DNA of 64,000 bases, from assembly GCA_002355455.1 (NCBI GenBank), contig AP017376.1, positions 62,001 through 126,000 of the forward strand, written 5' to 3'. Both the position numbers and the translations under genes were made by a program. The DNA is from Stanieria sp. NIES-3757. GTDB lineage: Bacteria; Cyanobacteriota; Cyanobacteriia; Cyanobacteriales; Xenococcaceae. Shown in pieces: positions 25,773 to 64,000 of this stretch; positions within the stretch are counted from its first letter, which is position 1, and each line of letters starts with the position of its first letter. The notes under the pieces were generated by a model that saw only the letters and a list, made by a program, of their open reading frames with translations, ran no database searches and was not told the origin of the DNA.

Positions 25773-26450
25773 ATGTTGAAAACAAAAGTTCTTCTGATTG
25801 AAACTGACCCAGCTATTGCTTTAGGCTTGCCAGAATTAATCCATCAAAAAGTTCAATCGGAAATAGTCGTTGATGTTTCCACTAATCATGAAGATGGTCT
25901 ATCAAAAGCACTTAGCTTAAAACCAGACTTAATTTTGATGGACTTGAATCATGGCAAAGGTTTGACTTTAGCAGAACAAATTAAAAATGTTCTTCCCGAA
26001 ATAAAAATTCTATTTCTTTCAGCTACTTTGAGCAATCAACAAGATTTAATTTGCCTCATAGCAGATGGCTATAATGGCTTTTGTCTTAAAGGTATGGAAG
26101 TTGATGAGTTAATTGAAGCAATTCGAGTTACTCAAAAAAATGAAGATAGTATTTATTTAGATGCCAGAATCGTTAGCGATTTGAGAAAACAAATTAGTCG
26201 TTTAAAGTATGTTACTGACGAAACTAATGAAGAAATTACTCATCTGTTGGCAGAATTTACAACCAGACAAAAAGACGTACTCAAGTTACTTTTACAGGGA
26301 AAAGATGAAACTGAAATTAGCAAACTGCTGGAAATTTCTTACTATACGGTTCGCTCTCATTTAAATGCGATTAGAAACAAGTTAGTCGCAAAAAGCAAAT
26401 CGGAAGTGATTGCTAAATGCTGGAGTATGGGTTTAGCTTATGCACTGTGA
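25773..26450 (+). CDS. NarL/LuxR-type response regulator
   Basis: 225 residues. The receiver domain (4-120) has acidic residues E10/D12, phospho-acceptor Asp57 in LILMDLN and Lys in GFCLKGME. The C-terminal domain has the LuxR helix-turn-helix FTTRQKDVLKLLLQGKDETEISKLLEISYYTVRSHLNAI. It would be a phosphorylation-controlled transcription factor. No histidine kinase is nearby, so it is an orphan in the window. Its targets are unknown. Confidence 0.9.
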   Translation: MLKTKVLLIETDPAIALGLPELIHQKVQSEIVVDVSTNHEDGLSKALSLKPDLILMDLNHGKGLTLAEQIKNVLPEIKILFLSATLSNQQDLICLIADGYNGFCLKGMEVDELIEAIRVTQKNEDSIYLDARIVSDLRKQISRLKYVTDETNEEITHLLAEFTTRQKDVLKLLLQGKDETEISKLLEISYYTVRSHLNAIRNKLVAKSKSEVIAKCWSMGLAYAL

Positions 26451-55201: not shown

Positions 55202-55608
55202 TTAAGAAGCAATCTTTTCGATCTTAATTACACGAGTACCAGACTTTCCCCGACGCTCGAAATTAACTTCTAAACCTACAGCACGCAATCCCGGATTGAT
55301 TTTCCGTAGCTGTCCGCTAAGTTTATTGGCAGCTTTGGGTAAGTCAGAGGCAGAGTATTCATATTTTGTTGCATACCCTTTAATCAACTTCAATAACTCG
55401 GTTGCCGTTCCCTGCCAGCAAGATTCTCTTTCTAATAAAGATTGAATTGCTAGTGCTACAGGAGAATCTTCTATCGTCAGTTTTTGGGATTGTTCGCGAT
55501 TAGTTTGATAGGCTTGAAGAAAAGTTCCCGATTTAAAACCCAAGGCTGGTTCTGCTGCCGTTACCCACTCGGCAAAATCTGCCATACGGGGAGATTCTTC
55601 TAGATTAA
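55202..55608 (-). pseudogene. Replication-type ATPase, C-terminal part (split by two IS elements)
   Basis: Open frame from NLEESPRMADFAEWVTAAEPALG to the stop at 55202. The PRMADFxxWxTAAEPALG motif is the region that follows the ATPase core in related plasmid and phage replication proteins. The N-terminal part is at 58206-59239. Simple removal of both insertion elements leaves the two parts one base out of frame, so a further small change has occurred. Confidence 0.8.
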
Positions 55609-55634
55609 TATCAAATCCGTTTGAATACCCATAA

Positions 55635-56123
55635 TTAAATCAGGTCTTCAGGCCACCAATGATAGTTAGTCAATCCTTGAATCAATTGTGGTTGTCGAAG
55701 TAGACTACGGCATCTTTGAATCATAATTTCTTCTAATTGGTCGAGAGTGTCAAAAGTTTTGTTCGCGATTGCTTCATTAGTCAGAGGCCATAATCTTTCG
55801 GCAGGTTGTAATTCTGGTGATTTGGGAGGCATCCAGAATAAATGTACTCCTTTGGGAACTTTTAGCTTTTCAGTAGTATGAAAAGATGCTTGATCGAGCG
55901 CTAAAATGACTCGCTTTTTTTCACCTATCTCAAAATGCCGAGCAAAATCTTCTAACAAAAGACTAAAAACTTTAGTGTTCAACTTGGGTACAATCCACCA
56001 ATAAGTTTCTCCTGAACCAGGATGTACAAATCCTGCTAACCACAACCATTGAAATCGCCAATTAACTTTGGCTATCGGTTGCTGACCCTTTTCTATCCAC
56101 ATGATTCGATTTACTGGCTGCAA
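55635..56123 (-). CDS. IS630-family transposase, C-terminal ORF (copy 2)
   Basis: Protein identical to the ORF at 24507. Holds the second and third catalytic residues (LALDQASFH, PELQPAERLWP). Confidence 0.88.
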   Translation of the reverse strand: MQPVNRIMWIEKGQQPIAKVNWRFQWLWLAGFVHPGSGETYWWIVPKLNTKVFSLLLEDFARHFEIGEKKRVILALDQASFHTTEKLKVPKGVHLFWMPPKSPELQPAERLWPLTNEAIANKTFDTLDQLEEIMIQRCRSLLRQPQLIQGLTNYHWWPEDLI

Positions 56124-56155
56124 TCCGATTCGATGCTCATCTTCAGCCCAAGTTT

Positions 56156-56698
56156 CTACCGTTGATTCAGGATATTGTTGTTTAATTGCTGCGGCAGTCT
56201 GCGCCAGTTTTTTTTCCAGCGTTGTTGCTCTTCGGGATCACTTTCGACATGAGTAGGTCTTGGTCTTCGACGGACGTATTCTAGTCCTCGAAGATAATCC
56301 CATCCTCTTTGAGGTGCGATCTCTTTGCCTAATAACTCACTCATCCAAGCTGCTACTTTGGTTCCGCTCCATAATCCTCCTGACTCTGGTGTTGCTTGAA
56401 GGGCTTGCCATAATAAGGCTTGTTGTTGTTCATCCAATAGTGGCTTGGCTCCCTGATTCTCTTTTCTTTTATCCCCCAAGCTTTCTGCCCCCAAGCGATT
56501 GTAACCCCAGACAAGTTCGTAAATCCAGCTACGGCTATAGCCAGTTATCTCTGCTACTTGTTCTGTAGTCTTTCCCTCTGCTAACAACCAGATAATTTGG
56601 TAGTGACTTCGCTCTCGTGGTTCTCTTGAATTACGATATCGTTGTTTTAGTTCCTCTATACTTAAATGAGGTTCGATTCTAATTCGTTTCGGCATCAA
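56156..56698 (-). CDS. IS630-family transposase, N-terminal ORF (copy 2)
   Basis: Protein identical to the ORF at 25028. The A8 slip site is the complement of 56208-56215. Confidence 0.88.
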   Translation of the reverse strand: MMPKRIRIEPHLSIEELKQRYRNSREPRERSHYQIIWLLAEGKTTEQVAEITGYSRSWIYELVWGYNRLGAESLGDKRKENQGAKPLLDEQQQALLWQALQATPESGGLWSGTKVAAWMSELLGKEIAPQRGWDYLRGLEYVRRRPRPTHVESDPEEQQRWKKNWRRLPQQLNNNILNQR

Positions 56699-56760
56699 TT
56701 GAATTTGGTTATTTTCTCTGCTTGATTATATCATGGGCAATTAAACGGATTTAATATAAC

Positions 56761-58205
56761 CCCTCTTTTATGACTATGGGGAAAAATATTGAATTAGCAA
56801 GCAACAGAGAACGAATACTCTAAAAATTGACTTTGAGGAAAAGGAGAACCACGAAAGCGATTCATAATGTTGATTAACTTAGAAAAACCAAGTTGAAGAT
56901 GTTGATTAGGAAATACGGATAGCCAAGGTTGAATAAGAGAGAAAAAGATTAATGGTTGAATAATTAAGCGCAAGTTATTTAAAGAACTTTTCCAACCAGC
57001 ACCAGAATCCCACGCCTGATGATTAGAGAAAGGAAAAGAAGAAACTGATTTAAGAGTAGAGACTTGAGAATTGGCATCGGGAACAATCGTCTCTAATTGA
57101 AAATAATTAGCTTGAAGACTTACTAAAAAATAAGTACTCATAATTAATTCCCACCAGCGTTCTATACCGTGATAATCTGTAACTCGAAAATCTGCCCAAC
57201 CAAGTTCATTTTTGACTTGTTTAAACGCATATTCAATCCAGTTTCTCAAACTATATTCTGAAGCAATTGTGGTGGCAATTTTGCCTTTTTTATTCGTCAT
57301 AATAAACCAAGTATCTTTTGGTTCAGGGTTTTTGTCGTCTTGTTTACTTATTTGATAGAAACGAATATGTTTTCTTGTGCCAAAAATAATTTCTCTAATG
57401 TATCTAGTTTCGCTCTTCTTTCGAGATAATTTTTGTTGATAAGCTTGCCATCGATTATATTTTTTTTTCTCATCGCCGAACATCCAAACCTTATGGTTAG
57501 AGCGAATTGCCACAATATACTCCAGATTCAATTGCTCCAAAACTGTAATTACATCTCCACTTTCTCCATACAAACTATCAGCTAATATTAACTTGATGTT
57601 AAAGTTCCATTTTTGTAATTCCTTGATTATTTCTACAGCTAGTTGTGGTTTGGTTTTATATGTATCTTCTGCTTTGAGGCATTTGTTCGGCTTAAATATT
57701 TTAAAAAGTAAAGGGTATGTTATTCCCTCTACTACTGCATAAGCATTAACCGACACAATTCCATTTTTTGTCTTTCCTAAATTACCAATATACTGTCTGG
57801 CTACATAATCAGTTGTTTTTCCTTTCTTGACATCTCCTGTTTCATCAATACAAAGAGTTATTTTTCTTTCTCCAATCAATAATTTAGTCAACCATAATCT
57901 AATTTCTCGTATTTTTTCTACATTCCAATGAGCTTCAGATAGAAAATAATTTAATCCTTGACTATCTTTTAATCCTACCGCTCTTGCTATCTTTGGTAGC
58001 GACTTTCTAGGTATTTCTGATAGCATTCCTAAATGTATTAATTTGAATGCTTCATAATTTCTCACATCAGAGAATAGCTCTTGGTAGGCTTGACAATAGT
58101 GATCGATAAAACTCACTGTTGATGATGCTTCTCTTCGTGGTGTCACCATTTTTCATTGGGTTTTTATTTTCAATTATTTTATCACCCTATAGTCATAAAA
58201 GAGGG
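56761..58205 (-). mobile_element. IS701-family insertion sequence (1445 bp)
   Basis: Inverted ends CCCTCTTTTATGACTATGGG and its near-inverse CCCTATAGTCATAAAAGAGGG, flanked by ATAAC (56756-56760 and 58206-58210), a 4-5 bp target duplication. One intact transposase gene. It lies immediately next to the IS630-type copy. Confidence 0.88.
56794..58149 (-). CDS. IS701-family transposase
   Basis: 451 residues. The N-terminal FIDHYCQAYQELFSDVRNYEAFKLIHLGML is followed by TLCIDETGDVKKGKTTDYVARQY (first Asp), LILADSLYGESGDVI (second Asp) and SLRNWIEYAFKQVKNELGWADFR (Glu of the C-terminal catalytic motif). It matches the IS701/DDE_5 order and is a single full-length ORF. Confidence 0.9.
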   Translation of the reverse strand: MVTPRREASSTVSFIDHYCQAYQELFSDVRNYEAFKLIHLGMLSEIPRKSLPKIARAVGLKDSQGLNYFLSEAHWNVEKIREIRLWLTKLLIGERKITLCIDETGDVKKGKTTDYVARQYIGNLGKTKNGIVSVNAYAVVEGITYPLLFKIFKPNKCLKAEDTYKTKPQLAVEIIKELQKWNFNIKLILADSLYGESGDVITVLEQLNLEYIVAIRSNHKVWMFGDEKKKYNRWQAYQQKLSRKKSETRYIREIIFGTRKHIRFYQISKQDDKNPEPKDTWFIMTNKKGKIATTIASEYSLRNWIEYAFKQVKNELGWADFRVTDYHGIERWWELIMSTYFLVSLQANYFQLETIVPDANSQVSTLKSVSSFPFSNHQAWDSGAGWKSSLNNLRLIIQPLIFFSLIQPWLSVFPNQHLQLGFSKLINIMNRFRGSPFPQSQFLEYSFSVAC

Positions 58206-59239
58206 ATAACTCTTTCTCGATTGGCTAAAGCCTGACTGACGGCAGTGCAGAGTAATCCCAGAATTCTTGGTTTTAACTGTTCAAAGCGAAGGTTAATTTC
58301 TGTTTCCGAACGTCGTTGCTGTAGGGGAATGGGATCGAGATGAATGCAAATCGAACGGTCTAGTAAGTCTGCGTTAGTTACTGTATCTACAATACTAGTA
58401 ATAATTACAGATCGTGCTGCTTCGATTACCGTTTGTTCTCCGTCACTGTAAAGCTTTCGATCTACATAACTATTACCCGTACTAAGTCGGCACAAACCGT
58501 CAGAAAGAGATTGAGAGAGTTTTGATAAATTATCAAAGCATAATACCCAAGTATTTATGGCTGCAACCATCAGACTGCGTTCGTCTTTGGGTTGCGATCG
58601 CAATACTCCTTTGCCAGGATCGATTAGTTGTTTGAGCATTCTTGCCAAACTGGATTTACCAGAACCCTGTTCGCCAGTGATAATTAACAAAGGATAGGGA
58701 GGATTGGGACTAAGCGTACCCAATAACCAACCTGCTACTAAAATCAATTGTTCGGGATTGAGATTAGTAAACTCTAACAAGTCTTCAATTTTGCCTCCCT
58801 TGACTGGAAGGGGTAGGGGTTCGATGAATTGGGAAGTTTTAAATCGAACGGGAGGATTCTTAACAATTTTCCAGCTTTTTTTGTTAATAGCGATCGCGCT
58901 TCCCTTGTCATCCCCTACGTTGATATAGATAGTTCCTTTGGATCGAACAACGCGATCGTGGTAAATTTCGGCTTTTGGTTTGAATAAAGCTTCTGTTTCT
59001 AATTGTTCTATCAATAAATTAACTTCTTTTGGGGTTAAGAATTTGTTGTATGTGCCTCTGACATAAGCTTTCAGCCAGCGTTTAAATTCATTGCTATGAA
59101 CTCGATATGTTTGACGAACTTGATATCTATAAACATCGATATATGCCGTGTCATCGGCGGTATGGAATAAACCCGAACTGAGTATTGTAAAAATTGTCTC
59201 TAATATTGTCGTTATTACCGTTTTAATCGGTTTAATCAT
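58206..59239 (-). pseudogene. Replication-type ATPase, N-terminal part (split by two IS elements)
   Basis: About 345 residues remain. Walker A is GEQGSGKSS (189-197), Walker B VLCFDNLSKLS (Asp near 236), and a sensor-like RSVIITSIVD and LDRSICIHLDPI follow. Such ATPases occur in plasmid and phage replication proteins (helicase-like, related in motif order to primase-associated ATPases). The frame ends ANRERVI and then runs into IS701-type DNA. The rest is at 55202-55608. Confidence 0.8.
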
Positions 59240-59353: not shown

Positions 59354-59608
59354 ATGTCAGATATCGACAAGCTCGTTGCTCAATTAAAAAAAAATCCCAA
59401 AAATGTAAAATTCAATGATTTAGTAAAAGTTTGCGATCGTTATTTTGGTGAAGCAAGACAACAAGGAACGAGTCACCTTGTTTATAAAACACCTTGGGTG
59501 GGAGATCCTCGTGTCAACATTCAAAACAAAAAGGGGAAAGCCAAGCCTTATCAAGTTAAGCAAGTTCTAGCTGCAATTGAAAAAATGGAGGAAATGAACG
59601 ATGAATAG
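59354..59608 (+). CDS. hicA: HicA-family toxin
   Basis: 84 residues. VAQLKKNPKNVKFNDLVKVCDRYFGEARQQGTSHLVYKTPW with the conserved His, then NIQNKKGKAKPYQVKQVLAAIEK. HicA is a double-stranded-RNA-binding-fold ribonuclease that cleaves mRNA. It overlaps hicB by 8 bp. Confidence 0.88.
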   Translation: MSDIDKLVAQLKKNPKNVKFNDLVKVCDRYFGEARQQGTSHLVYKTPWVGDPRVNIQNKKGKAKPYQVKQVLAAIEKMEEMNDE

Positions 59609-59969
59609 CCAAAAAAATGTCGATCGATCTGAATTATCCCTTAAAACTAATTTTCTTCACTATACTTATAGAGTTTTTTGGTCAGTAGAAGATGAAGAAT
59701 TTGTCGGGCTATGTGTGGAATTTCCCAGCCTTTCTTATTTAGATGAGAATCATCTTGCTGCACTATCGGGAATTACAGATTTAGTTAAAGATGTCATTGC
59801 AGATATGGAAGCTAACGGTGAATCGATTCCAGAACCTTTTGCTAACAAAGAGTATAGCGGTAAATTTCAAATTCGCATTCCTCCAGAGCTTCATCGTAAG
59901 TTAGCTATTGAAGCGGCAGAAGCTAAAGTTAGTTTGAATCGTTATGTCAGTAATAAGTTAGCATCTTAA
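59601..59969 (+). CDS. hicB: HicB-family antitoxin
   Basis: 122 residues. The partial RNase H-like domain has YRVFWSVEDEEFVGLCVEFPSLSYLDENHLAAL. The C-terminal ribbon-helix-helix has GKFQIRIPPELHRKLAIEAAEAKVSLNRYVSNKL, the DNA-binding part for autoregulation. Confidence 0.9.
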   Translation: MNSQKNVDRSELSLKTNFLHYTYRVFWSVEDEEFVGLCVEFPSLSYLDENHLAALSGITDLVKDVIADMEANGESIPEPFANKEYSGKFQIRIPPELHRKLAIEAAEAKVSLNRYVSNKLAS

Positions 59970-59992: not shown

Positions 59993-60052
59993 GCGATCGC
60001 CTTTAGTTGACTTCCTACTGATATATCGATCGATTTACTTCAAATGTTGCAA
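59993..60052 (+). repeat. Direct repeat, right of hicAB
   Basis: Second copy of the repeat at 59245-59306; the two share CTTTAGTTGACTTCCTACTG and the following GATATATCGA-x-CGATTTACTT-x-AAATGTTGCA. Confidence 0.8.
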
Positions 60053-60211
60053 GATTGACTTAACTTTGATTAGCCAAAGCAGGCGATCTTATTTTCTTAA
60101 AACCTTTTAAATTGCTCAATTTTATGCAGTAAGTTGAGATTTATTTATAATTGCACCAAATATATCATCAGGATTTTGTTTTATTCTGATAAATATATAT
60201 CTGGGACTATT

Positions 60212-61609
60212 ATGCGACATACTTACAAAAAGCAGACTAATCAGCATTTACTCAACAGGTTTATCCTTTTGATACTGCTATTTATACTAATCCCTTTGCT
60301 CTCAGCATTAGCGTTATCTAAATTAGGAGATTGGAAAATATATAATACTATTAGTTTTGGCGATAAAATTTTGCTTCCCAATGTATGTATGAGCGAAGAA
60401 AAAAAACAAGGAGTAATATATTATCAAAACTCCGAGTTTTTAAAGGCTATAGAGCGGTTTAATAGTAGCTTAAAAAATGAATGTAGAAACGATCCAGAAT
60501 CTCTTATATATAAAAATAATAGCGAAATAGAAATAGGCAATCGCCAATCTATAACTATAGCTGTTTTAGTTCCTATTAGTATTGGTCGCGAACCAAAAAA
60601 AGCTTTAGAAATGTTAAGAGGCTTTGCAAAAGCTCAAGATGATATTAATAAAACAAATGAGATAAATAGCTTACCCTTAAAAATTGCAATTATTGATGAT
60701 GCTGACAATCCGATAAAAGCGCAAAAAATTGCTCAAACAATTTCAAAAAACAACTTTTTTTTAGGTGCTATCGGACACTGGACATCTGATGTTAGTCTTG
60801 CAGCAGCTTCTGTTTATAATTTCCAAAAAATGCCTTTTATTACTTCTATAAGTACAACAAATAAATTATCGGAAAATGACAAGGATTATACACATCAAAT
60901 AAATATTACTAATTTTAATGGTGCTATAGCATTAGCAGAATATGCAAAATCTCAGGGAAAAAAGAAAATAGCAATTTTTTATACAAGTCGTGCTACTTAT
61001 AGCAAAGAAATTAGAAAAAAATTTAATGATGAATTTGGGGGAGGGTCTAATACCGAAGTAGTAGCTGAATTTGACTTTACTAATCGTTTTGAATATAAGC
61101 CAAAAACAAATGTGCAAGAAGCTATTGACAAAATGGCAGATGTTATCTTAATTGTTCCCGATATTAATTTAGATACAAAAGCCTATGAGGTGATGAAAGC
61201 TATTAAAGAGAAAAACTCAGACATACTTATACTAGGGGATTTAGCCAACTTATATAGTAAATCAACGCTAAATGAAAAGAACGCAGATGGATTAGTAATG
61301 GCTTTATCTTGGAATCAACATATTAATGATATTTCAAAGAATTTTTTTGATGATTCTAGAAAACTTTGGAAAGCAGATGTTAACTATGCCACTGCAATGT
61401 CGTATGATGCAGTTAAAGCCTTTTCACAAGCGATCGCAAATTTAAAAAGATTGGAGATTTCTCGTGAAAATGTTAATAAGGAATTAAACAAAGACAATTT
61501 TACTTTTCAAGGCTCAACTGGTGCAAGAGAAGTGATAAATAAAAAAATAGCTTTTGTTATGGTTAAAAATGGAGAATTTGTTTATTTATATTCCAAGCAA
61601 ATAAATTAG
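60212..61609 (+). CDS. Membrane-anchored periplasmic-binding-protein-like receptor
   Basis: About 465 residues from MRHTYKKQTNQ; 26 further upstream codons are open. One membrane helix (FILLILLFILIPLLSALALS) precedes a short TPR-like stretch (GVIYYQNSEFLKAIERFNSSL) and a type-I periplasmic-binding domain: ITIAVLVPISIGREPKKALEMLRGFAKAQ, FLGAIGHWTSDVSLAAASVYN, KIAIFYTSRATYSKEI and TAMSYDAVKAFSQAI. No transporter permease is nearby, so it is probably a sensor rather than a transport protein. It is convergent with a CHAT protease gene 12 bases away. Confidence 0.78.
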   Translation: MRHTYKKQTNQHLLNRFILLILLFILIPLLSALALSKLGDWKIYNTISFGDKILLPNVCMSEEKKQGVIYYQNSEFLKAIERFNSSLKNECRNDPESLIYKNNSEIEIGNRQSITIAVLVPISIGREPKKALEMLRGFAKAQDDINKTNEINSLPLKIAIIDDADNPIKAQKIAQTISKNNFFLGAIGHWTSDVSLAAASVYNFQKMPFITSISTTNKLSENDKDYTHQINITNFNGAIALAEYAKSQGKKKIAIFYTSRATYSKEIRKKFNDEFGGGSNTEVVAEFDFTNRFEYKPKTNVQEAIDKMADVILIVPDINLDTKAYEVMKAIKEKNSDILILGDLANLYSKSTLNEKNADGLVMALSWNQHINDISKNFFDDSRKLWKADVNYATAMSYDAVKAFSQAIANLKRLEISRENVNKELNKDNFTFQGSTGAREVINKKIAFVMVKNGEFVYLYSKQIN

Positions 61610-61621
61610 ATTTGCTAACAA

Positions 61622-63358
61622 CTAATCTACTAGATAGCTTAAAATTTTATGGGAAAAATACGCAATTAAAACAGAAGCTATTATTTCAATCGGCATAATT
61701 ATAAAATTAAATTCAAAACTTTTAGGAAGACTACTCCCAGCTTTAAATAAGAAAGCTAAAACAAGAATAATTAAGCAAAATGCTATTAACCTTTTAACAT
61801 TGCTACTTATATTGCTTCTAATAAAATGAAAGTATCCAAATAAACTTACCAAAAATACGAAAATCGATAGAAACTGCATCCAGAAAGGAAAGTATTCTAT
61901 TTGTAGAAAAGATAAGATAATCCCAAAGCAACAGCCCATTATTATTCTTGCATAAGCGAGAAATTTTGTTTCTCCTGGTGGAAAAATTTTAGTAAAATCA
62001 TGATAAATATAAATCAAAGGAATTGTTTGTCTTTTTGGTGGTAAAGCAACAACAGGCAACCAAGATACTTCTAAACTAAAATCATTCTCTTCTTGAGTAG
62101 AACTAATTTTTTGTTTAGTCTTTAGCATAACCATATCAAGATTGTGGTTTTTTGGATTGCAAAACTCTTGAAAAAAGCTAGTCAAAAAATCTAGAGCTAA
62201 TATATCTGTAATAGCTTCTTTATAAGCAATACATGATATATTTTCAACAAAATTAAGTACATCTTCTGCCAAACCCAAACTACTACATGAAGTGAATATT
62301 AACAATCTATGTTTTTGATTATTTTCATTGATGTTTCTTAAAGTATCTCTAAGCCTGTATATAGGAAATTGTGAGCTTTGTGATAATTGAATAATACCTC
62401 TATGTTTTCCTTGACTATTAGGAAGAGTATCACTGTGTCCGATAAAGACCAAGATATCAAAATTACTATTACTTTCTATTTTTTCGGCTAAATCTTGGCA
62501 ACTTTCGGGTCTTATTTTTTGAAGGTTTATTTCTATGCTTTGACCATTGCTTTGGCATTGTATTGAATCTAATCTTGAATCTAAATTGTCAGGTCTTTCT
62601 TCTTGATCTATCTTTATTCCAGAACCTATTATTACCAATACATTAATTTTTTTACTTTCACTATTGTTTATAAATATCTTTTGGTAATTGTAATTCAAAT
62701 TATTACCATTTTCTTTGTCCTGTGAAACAAAATTAACTGATAATTTTAACTGAGATATATTATTTGCTCTATGATCATGTTTAGATAATTCAATTATCCA
62801 TTTTTTGATTGACTGTTCCCAAGGTAATTGTCTAATAAATCTGTTATCACTTTGTATAAATAGCTTAAAAATATTATCGTTTTGGAAATTAGATTGTTGA
62901 GTAAAATTAATAATATTTTCATACAATTGATTTCTGATAAAATTTAATTGATTCGTATGCGCCCACCAATTATGCAAAGCTAAAACTAAATAATTAGATA
63001 AATCTCTAATTTCTTCGATCATGCCTTGAATCTGTTTATTAATCTCATCAATCTCTTGATTGACAACATCAGTAGAAATAGTTTTGATATCTATTATCGC
63101 TAAAGAGTCAGTATGAGAATTGTTTTTGAATCTATCTATTGACTTTTGCCAATTAGCTAAATGTTCAAATACATTTTTTTGATTTACGATACTTAAATCA
63201 GGTCTTTTTTGTAACGTTCCCTTCCAACATCGATTATTTAAATTTGCAGATTGAGAAGATAAATATAATTCTACCCCAAACACTTCTTCTGATGAATAAT
63301 TTGTTGACAATGTAAATCCAGCTTCAGTATCTGGATTAAACTTTAAAATGGCAGACAT
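61622..63358 (-). CDS. CHAT-domain cysteine protease with C-terminal membrane helices
   Basis: 578 residues. The N-terminal part (1-230) is not recognised apart from FIRQLPWEQ, which in other CHAT proteins precedes the peptidase. The caspase-like core (about 238-440) has the catalytic His308 (ILVFIGHSDTL) and Cys358 (RLLIFTSCSSLGLAEDV). Four hydrophobic helices fill 466-575. CHAT proteases act in bacterial immune and cell-death pathways. Here the protease should be tethered to the membrane. Confidence 0.82.
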   Translation of the reverse strand: MSAILKFNPDTEAGFTLSTNYSSEEVFGVELYLSSQSANLNNRCWKGTLQKRPDLSIVNQKNVFEHLANWQKSIDRFKNNSHTDSLAIIDIKTISTDVVNQEIDEINKQIQGMIEEIRDLSNYLVLALHNWWAHTNQLNFIRNQLYENIINFTQQSNFQNDNIFKLFIQSDNRFIRQLPWEQSIKKWIIELSKHDHRANNISQLKLSVNFVSQDKENGNNLNYNYQKIFINNSESKKINVLVIIGSGIKIDQEERPDNLDSRLDSIQCQSNGQSIEINLQKIRPESCQDLAEKIESNSNFDILVFIGHSDTLPNSQGKHRGIIQLSQSSQFPIYRLRDTLRNINENNQKHRLLIFTSCSSLGLAEDVLNFVENISCIAYKEAITDILALDFLTSFFQEFCNPKNHNLDMVMLKTKQKISSTQEENDFSLEVSWLPVVALPPKRQTIPLIYIYHDFTKIFPPGETKFLAYARIIMGCCFGIILSFLQIEYFPFWMQFLSIFVFLVSLFGYFHFIRSNISSNVKRLIAFCLIILVLAFLFKAGSSLPKSFEFNFIIMPIEIIASVLIAYFSHKILSYLVD

Positions 63359-63384
63359 CTTTAAATACTACTTCAATACTATTG

Positions 63385-63981
63385 TTAAAATTTAATTTCA
63401 CAAATTTGACTAAAACCATCAAAATACATTTCTATAACATAAATTTCGTTTTCTTGAATATCTTTGATGCTACACTCAATACGACCAGTTTTTTCGTTTT
63501 CACTAACTTCTTTTTCTATTAACGTATTTTTCTCTATATCCATTATTTTTACTTTAATACCAACAGGTAAATCTAGAAACTCTGATTTTAGTGAAGGATA
63601 TATTTTAATAAGTAAATCTGAATTATTATTTTGATTGATTGTAGCTATTGTTTGCAATATAAAAGTTTTGATTCCTAGATCGATTTCTAGACTTTTTGAA
63701 ATTCCTTCTTGTGTTTGTAAATTTTGAGAATATATATTCATCCATTGCGGTGTTAGCATTCCTCTAGGATGAAAAAATTCGCTATCAGTATAATAAAAAT
63801 CTTCAAAAATACCTTTAAACCAGTTTTTAATATTAATTTTGATGACTGGTTTTTTGATGACTGATTTTCTTCTTTTATAAAGTTTATTCCTACGCTGGTT
63901 ATCTGCGATAAATGTACACCATCGATCTATATCAACTTTGTATCGAGGAGAAAAAGAACTAGGTTGTTTTAGCTCTGCCAT
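63385..63981 (-). CDS. DUF1822-like protein upstream of a CHAT gene
   Basis: 198 residues, 26 bases upstream of the CHAT gene. IKNWFKGIFEDFYYTDSEFF, then KSLEIDLGIKTFILQTIATINQNNNSDLLIKIYPS, LPVGIKVKIMDIEKNTLIEKEV and FDGFSQICEIKF follow the layout of DUF1822, which in cyanobacteria often neighbours CHAT genes. The N-terminal part normally present (repeat of LAVYA-type helices) is short here. Confidence 0.55.
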   Translation of the reverse strand: MAELKQPSSFSPRYKVDIDRWCTFIADNQRRNKLYKRRKSVIKKPVIKINIKNWFKGIFEDFYYTDSEFFHPRGMLTPQWMNIYSQNLQTQEGISKSLEIDLGIKTFILQTIATINQNNNSDLLIKIYPSLKSEFLDLPVGIKVKIMDIEKNTLIEKEVSENEKTGRIECSIKDIQENEIYVIEMYFDGFSQICEIKF

Positions 63982-64000
63982 TAATTCATTTACTTGACTT

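Follow-up and report, generated by a model that had tools for sequence, protein, structure and literature searches.

The stretch of DNA analysed here, called the window in the following, comprises 64,000 nucleotides of Stanieria sp. NIES-3757 and corresponds to positions 62001-126000 of contig C2 in the 5.46-Mb, two-contig genome. C2 has 143,540 bases, and 106 of its 145 open reading frames (ORFs) were matched on plasmid pSTA7437.01 of Stanieria cyanosphaera PCC 7437; 71 of the 102 ORFs matched over at least half of their length were at least 90% identical. Because of this resemblance, C2 is most likely a Stanieria plasmid. At the end of the window begins a cassette of four genes, which encode a type-I periplasmic-binding protein (PBP), a predicted CHAT protease with four transmembrane (TM) helices, a DUF1822 protein and, wholly outside the window, a sigma-70-like protein, and which may together form a relay from an outside signal via a protease to transcription. 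As stated in an initial annotation of this DNA, the PBP gene ends 12 bp from the convergent CHAT gene (61610-61621 between the stops) and the CHAT gene is preceded by a DUF1822-like gene, whose ORF in the window (63385-63981) turned out to cover only the C-terminal part of a gene of 423 codons. The features of the locus are as follows, in window numbering unless indicated otherwise:

60212-61609, + strand: membrane-anchored type-I PBP, with a TM segment from about residue 17 and a PBP domain at residues 114-438 (Pfam, homology)
61622-63358, - strand: predicted CHAT protease, with an EACC2-like N-terminal region (about 1-210), the CHAT domain (about 240-440) and four TM helices (467-570)
62435-62437, - strand: codon of the predicted catalytic His308 (from the alignment; position by arithmetic from the start at 63358)
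62285-62287, - strand: codon of the predicted catalytic Cys358 (from the alignment; position by arithmetic from the start at 63358)
63385-64000, - strand: C-terminal half of the DUF1822 gene, which extends past the window to 64656
64663-66243, outside the window: most likely a sigma-70-like gene of 526 codons, six bases beyond the DUF1822 gene
59993-60052: left edge of the probably exchanged cassette, the last stretch with 92% identity to the PCC 7437 plasmid DNA
G000:C2:128398, outside the window: right edge of the probably exchanged cassette

The PBP ORF encodes 465 amino acids from an ATG codon, with a possible alternative TTG start at 60134. The protein has a single N-terminal membrane segment preceded by basic residues and matched the Pfam families Peripla_BP_6 (E value 3e-21, residues 114-438) and ANF_receptor (1e-15); for its short middle region, a resemblance to tetratricopeptide repeats (TPR) is indicated by weak Pfam matches that were confined to relatives. 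It is 44% identical over residues 56-437 to its counterpart in the same-genus genome G001. No transporter family (E ≤ 0.001) was found among the 10 neighbouring ORFs scanned on the window replicon, and none of the 15 features annotated around the PCC 7437 copy is an ATP-binding cassette (ABC) ATPase. The earlier description as a membrane-anchored type-I PBP without a transporter therefore holds, and the protein is predicted to be a transporter-less receptor as far as the neighbouring ORFs are concerned, more distant partners being possible.

The CHAT protein comprises 578 amino acids and contains four hydrophobic segments starting at residues 467, 495, 524 and 550. Its CHAT domain was not recognised by Pfam or NCBIfam. 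When the protein was used as query, 113 of 150 genomes (a sample that includes the window's own) gave CHAT-type matches, and residues H308 and C358 were invariant across 53 aligned CHAT proteins. The predicted structure (mean predicted local distance difference test score [pLDDT] 69, with 80-94 in most of the CHAT core) gave fold matches to SAVED-CHAT (8tl0, E value 1.6e-6), separase and caspases. Homology, the invariant His/Cys pair and the predicted fold thus agree with the hydrophobic segments in supporting the initial annotation of a CHAT protease with four C-terminal membrane helices. Over its first 210 residues, the protein could be aligned with the constant N-terminal part of 52 operon-type CHAT proteins, with conserved positions in common; we tentatively equate this region with the EACC2 domain of Kaur et al. 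2021 and call it EACC2-like. Prediction of its structure, as recommended in the initial annotation, was of low confidence in that region. The C-terminal tails of the CHAT proteins vary, with four TM helices in the window and in PCC 7437 and CHASE2, PBP or other parts in relatives. An origin of the four-helix tail from CHASE2 was considered and is not claimed: compared with 71 other polytopic proteins, the window tail had the highest score, but this was only 5.3 bits (3.8 for the second best), and that of PCC 7437 did not score (-2.7 bits).

PCC 7437 carries the four genes at the corresponding site of the homologous plasmid, ordered and oriented as on C2, with the convergent PBP and CHAT stops 3 bp apart. 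The identities between the two copies amount to 37% for PBP (484 aligned positions), 35% for CHAT, 33% for DUF1822 and 22% by global alignment for the sigma pair. On either side of the cassette, most flanking genes share 85-100% identity, one short partial match reaching 75%. DNA homology ends at window position 60052 and restarts at C2:128398, just outside the four genes, and inside the cassette there are only scattered weak patches of 64-82% over 44-429 bases (E below 1e-3). As the flanks are mostly 85-100% and the module just 22-37% identical, the whole cassette seems to have been exchanged in one piece, the likely cause being recombination that brought in a distant allele of the same type. 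Such a drop in identity between shared flanks was unique to the Stanieria pair among 45 locus pairs, which were drawn from loci chosen for similarity and are therefore biased against seeing swaps, and three of which represent one locus fetched twice (L117/L143, L119/L150, L133/L217). A general hypervariability of the cassette was ruled out, as DUF1822 identity was 75-100% in 44 of the 45 locus pairs with shared flanks. The convergent PBP gene moved with the CHAT operon, which is the strongest sign that the PBP belongs to the module.

Pairing of CHAT proteases with PBP-type sensors was also found in other cyanobacteria. Single CHAT-TM-PBP proteins are encoded behind DUF1822 at the loci L100, L112 and L120 and on plasmid p1 of Planktothrix pseudagardhii. 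In a sample of 386 genomes of the phylum, CHAT and PBP matches in one frame occurred in six (G046, which is that of the query itself, G438, G100, G148, G198, G347). This is a lower bound, as matches at E ≤ 1e-75 were counted and no more than two candidates were scored in each genome. A stand-alone PBP gene on the same strand precedes the CHAT-PBP fusion at L100, at L112 (six ORFs before DUF1822), at L142 and on the Planktothrix plasmid. These stand-alone PBPs are sisters of the fused PBP of their own locus at L100 (support 100/100) and L112 (99/97). Since such fusions and upstream stand-alone PBPs occur, outside sensors of the PBP type are paired with CHAT repeatedly, and the single-protein forms support a sensor-protease link. 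At L120 (2039-12249), four tandem CHAT-TM-PBP genes follow one sigma-DUF1822 pair, which suggests a receptor repertoire sharing one output.

Fusions of PBP-type sensors with Ser/Thr kinases and with a caspase-nSTAND-WD40 protein were seen as well, and kinase-TM-PBP proteins are among the closest relatives of the window PBP. In the PBP tree, the window and PCC 7437 proteins are sisters (95/86) and sit among kinase-fused and stand-alone PBPs (99/99), not among the CHAT-fused ones; branches are long (1.19 for the window PBP), so that deep placements are uncertain. Because of this grouping, the sensor module is predicted to serve several outputs. For the same reason, a simple split of a CHAT-PBP fusion was rejected as the origin of the window pair, and the Stanieria PBP-CHAT pair looks like a separate recruitment. 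A caspase-type fusion was seen at L107 (2415-8102), where a protein of 1895 amino acids has the order caspase (C14)-nSTAND1-WD40-PBP; the PBP of a protein of 2330 amino acids at L106 (210-7202), which likewise matches nSTAND and caspase profiles, is sister to that of L107.

The operon sigma-DUF1822-CHAT recurs in many cyanobacteria. In 80 named loci, the best of 492 obtained in a DUF1822 alignment search, DUF1822 was preceded by a sigma homologue at a distance of at most 1 kb in 66 of the 73 loci with room (misses: L160, L162, L171, L174, L184, L212, L219) and followed by a CHAT gene within 1.5 kb in 63 of 70 (misses: L143, L144, L147, L168, L184, L203, L222); these rates are upper estimates, since the query alignment was built from CHAT-linked loci. 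The 63 CHAT genes encode CHASE2 in 47 cases, PBP in one and neither in 15. The gap between sigma and DUF1822 was at most 40 bp in 62 of 71 cases, including 33 overlaps, and that between DUF1822 and CHAT in 30 of 61. The sigma-DUF1822 pairing is tight. A further sigma-DUF1822 pair is present on the chromosome of the window genome (L139, 7812-10205), with no CHAT neighbour within 20 kb, which suggests that sigma and DUF1822 are the core pair.

The window sigma-like protein matched a profile of 65 genes located upstream of DUF1822 in other cyanobacteria, from which both Stanieria proteins were left out, with an E value of 3.9e-26. The PCC 7437 member reached 3.6e-13 among 425 ORFs with the filters off and gave no match under default filters. 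Three homologues located upstream of DUF1822 were searched against the sigma-70 model TIGR02937 and matched at about 1e-30 (two) and 8e-11 (one). Because its profile relatives match this model, the 526-codon gene most likely encodes a diverged sigma-70-like protein. A second ORF of the window, 25773-26450 (+), also scored against the sigma profile (E value 1e-4). A common promoter motif upstream of the PBP and sigma genes is not claimed, with 5 hits in the window plasmid versus a mean of 6.2 in 20 shuffles and 11 hits in PCC 7437 versus a mean of 2.6 (maximum 7).

The whole 423-codon protein matched Pfam DUF1822 with an E value of 1e-48, and matches to this family were found in 88 of the 150 genomes. 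A structure model was obtained for the homologue from Hydrococcus sp. Prado102 (L175), with a pLDDT of 82; it consists of an alpha/beta domain (about 14-245) and a C-terminal beta-sandwich (301-406), and pLDDT fell below 50 between both domains, at residues 249-260 and 264-266. The interdomain residues 246-300 are the most variable of the protein (entropy 2.12 versus 1.69 and 1.43 in the domains), and the length of the stretch between the domains varied between 46 and 75 residues in 56 sequences. Insertions were seen at this place in some other DUF1822 members, and a HEAT_2 match at 208-267 in one. No Foldseek match at E ≤ 0.001 was obtained with the model. Its N-terminal part (residues 16-190) gave Z scores of 6.0-6.4 to chains of Hjc, DpnI and SPARDA, which we take to have the PD-(D/E)XK fold, and its C-terminal part resembles Ig-like sandwiches. 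As all these likenesses are below Z 8, they may reflect just a common arrangement.

The operon class of sigma, DUF1822 and EACC2-caspase genes is already known. In the accessible part of their paper, Kaur et al. 2021 (eLife, PMC8195603) describe EACC2 plus caspase proteins with variable C-termini, report an extracytoplasmic function (ECF) sigma factor plus DUF1822 in most of the neighbourhoods that are TRADD-N-independent, and suggest that activation occurs by autopeptidase activity and that sigma is the output. The Stanieria cassette resembles these systems in that a constant N-terminal region is followed by a protease of the caspase superfamily, here with a predicted His/Cys dyad, and by a variable C-terminal sensor or TM part, and in the adjoining DUF1822 and sigma genes, the latter by homology only (the profile match given above). 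It differs in that the sensor is a separate, convergent PBP and the CHAT tail a four-helix one. The main text of that paper mentions "several small-molecule-binding domains"; the words periplasmic, PBP and solute-binding are absent from it. DUF1822 is called a TPR protein there, whereas the homologue modelled here has an alpha/beta domain and a beta-sandwich.

Single metacaspase-ANF_receptor and metacaspase-CHASE2 proteins were noted by Asplund-Samuelsson et al. 2012 (PMC3501461), who argued for a membrane topology of the latter. They likewise combine an extracellular receptor domain with a caspase-like domain, but in one protein, with one sequence per architecture, and the accessible part of the paper mentions no sigma/DUF1822 operon. 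The initial annotation had regarded a sensor-to-protease circuit as undescribed; judged by the accessible parts of these two papers, this does not stand for the operon class and for fused proteins, and it does for the split PBP form. Cyanobacterial Ser/Thr kinases with an ANF domain (Zhang et al. 2007, PMC2176072, as far as accessible) contain the same type of binding domain, with a kinase output and a fused sensor. In the Craspase system, the CHAT protease Csx29 cuts Csx30, an inhibitor of CASP-sigma (Strecker et al. 2022, PMC10028731, as far as accessible). The Stanieria cassette is similar in that the gene of a CHAT protease neighbours those of a multi-domain protein and of a sigma factor; unlike it, Craspase is RNA-activated via Cas7-11, and DUF1822 showed no similarity to Csx30, either by sequence profile (E ≤ 5) or among the best 50 of 1164 fold matches. 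Because no such similarity was seen, we regard the parallel as a likeness of logic by analogy, not as membership.

On this basis, we propose that the four genes encode a transmembrane relay from signal to protease to transcription, to which we give a little less than an even chance. The PBP would bind a small molecule outside the cell and, by contact within the membrane, activate the cytoplasmic CHAT domain of the four-helix protein. The activated protease would cleave DUF1822, which would hold back the co-encoded sigma factor until cut, and the freed sigma factor would then turn on its target genes. Cleavage would be expected in the linker between the two DUF1822 domains, at residues of about 246-300, because this region is low-confidence, variable and insertion-bearing. 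The steps differ in strength: coupling of PBP and CHAT is probable, sigma as the output is somewhat more plausible than not, and a role of DUF1822 as the cleaved restraint, suggested by analogy, is rather doubtful. The sensor-to-protease circuit put forward in the initial annotation is supported by the four-gene layout kept at 22-37% identity and by the CHAT-TM-PBP fusions; of the cell-death or stress output considered there, direct killing is less likely than a transcriptional output because a sigma-like gene is part of the operon. A more far-reaching version, in which a ligand-gated transmembrane CHAT protease frees sigma by cutting DUF1822, so that the Craspase logic operates outside CRISPR and is driven from the cell surface, the receptor was recruited separately and the cassette is exchanged as an allele between plasmid regions that are otherwise nearly identical, like a self/non-self or rivalry locus, seems improbable to us.

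Several observations weigh against the proposed relay. In the searches made, no genomes other than that of the window and PCC 7437 yielded the split PBP plus CHAT form. Among the matches listed for the 150 genomes, only G001 spans the CHAT N-terminal region plus the CHAT region, and the 386 phylum genomes, a sample evidently without G001, contained one other match at E ≤ 1e-13, G157, which covers the CHAT region alone. The conserved PBP-CHAT adjacency that the initial annotation had suggested looking for thus extends to the four-gene layout of PCC 7437 and was seen nowhere else in these searches. The window sigma-like protein had no NCBIfam match and no meaningful Pfam match, and as a single query it gave matches in 7 of the 150 genomes. 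The five promoter-motif hits listed for each plasmid were AT-rich and differed between the plasmids, and no shared motif is claimed. An amino-acid transport pair, AzlC and AzlD, is encoded on the far side of the sigma gene in PCC 7437; AzlC bears the annotation "AzlC family ABC transporter permease". To these points belong also the position of the Stanieria PBPs outside the CHAT-fused group, the missing likeness of DUF1822 to Csx30, and the adjacency rates being upper estimates.

The PBP might be an unrelated passenger, an orphan solute receptor or the partner of a distant kinase or transporter, the system then consisting of sigma, DUF1822 and CHAT alone. Its gene is on the opposite strand, it is one of many paralogues, the family being matched in 129 of the 150 genomes and represented a second time on the chromosome of the window genome, it clusters with kinase-fused PBPs, and AzlCD is close to the PCC 7437 copy. 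We nevertheless consider this quite improbable, given that the PBP kept its exact position and was block-swapped with the CHAT operon in both plasmids, and that CHAT-PBP fusions with stand-alone PBPs upstream exist. An EACC2-type conflict or suicide module, in which the CHAT effector would auto-process on a cue from an invader or rival and harm the cell or plasmid-free siblings while sigma regulates the cassette only, is rather unlikely in our view but has some support: Kaur et al. 2021 (PMC8195603), in the accessible text, place the EACC2-caspase/ECF-sigma/DUF1822 systems among apoptosis- and immunity-like ones, and the plasmid location and the block replacement between sister plasmids would fit, as would the DUF1822-annotated and caspase-nSTAND-WD40 genes on a second PCC 7437 plasmid (see below). 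However, no PADLOC family was assigned to the four module proteins and no other evidence for defence was found, no toxin domain was seen in them, and the ordinary orthologue identity of 44 of the 45 locus pairs argues against arms-race divergence as a general feature.

A HetF-like division or differentiation protease, in which case the membrane-anchored CHAT protein would act on targets of the cell cycle and the PBP would sense nutrients, is in our opinion very improbable. HetF is a divisome component needed for heterocyst initiation (PMC8406250, as far as accessible). Weak matches to the NCBIfam HetF model were obtained for 36 of the 53 aligned CHAT proteins (best E value 1.6e-11), but the two proteins scored reached 23-30 bits compared with a cut-off of 1200, the window protein had no match to it, and the cassette is plasmid-borne. 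To our knowledge, no sigma/DUF1822 operon is known for HetF.

The surroundings of the cassette showed further features. Between the left flank and the cassette lies a toxin-antitoxin-like unit of two genes (59354-59969, +), an ORF of 84 amino acids and a HicB-family gene (Pfam E value 2e-17), without a counterpart at that place in PCC 7437. In the adjacent region 55202-59239 (-), a gene intact in PCC 7437 (483 amino acids, weak AAA/P-loop similarity) is broken into 55202-55585 and 58193-59239, the halves being separated by transposase ORFs (DDE_3, 55635-56123; DDE_5, 56794-58149). On a second plasmid of PCC 7437 (L223, NC_019749.1, 20000-50000), homologues of two left-flank genes are located near a gene of 130 amino acids annotated as DUF1822 and near two caspase-nSTAND genes, one of them caspase-nSTAND-WD40; from this, the site of the cassette may be a hotspot for such systems.

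Searches of the open-licence PubMed Central literature revealed no paper joining a periplasmic binding protein with a CHAT domain and none joining CHAT domain, CHASE2 and cyanobacteria, and, judged by titles, only Kaur et al. 2021 on the topic of EACC2; DUF1822 was named in two papers. As far as these searches show, the use of a PBP as sensor of the EACC2 class, its separate convergent gene and its independent recruitment are new, as are the block-swapped plasmid cassette and the specific proposal of DUF1822 cleavage. For the common but functionally uncharacterised cyanobacterial family DUF1822, a role as cleavable restraint on sigma is a concrete proposal. The two Stanieria plasmids provide a natural allele-swap pair for questions of specificity. 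If the proposed relay is correct, caspase-like proteases would be the middle step of a bacterial signalling path from the cell surface to genes with modular sensors, a counterpart of the RseA/DegS-type and Craspase logic.

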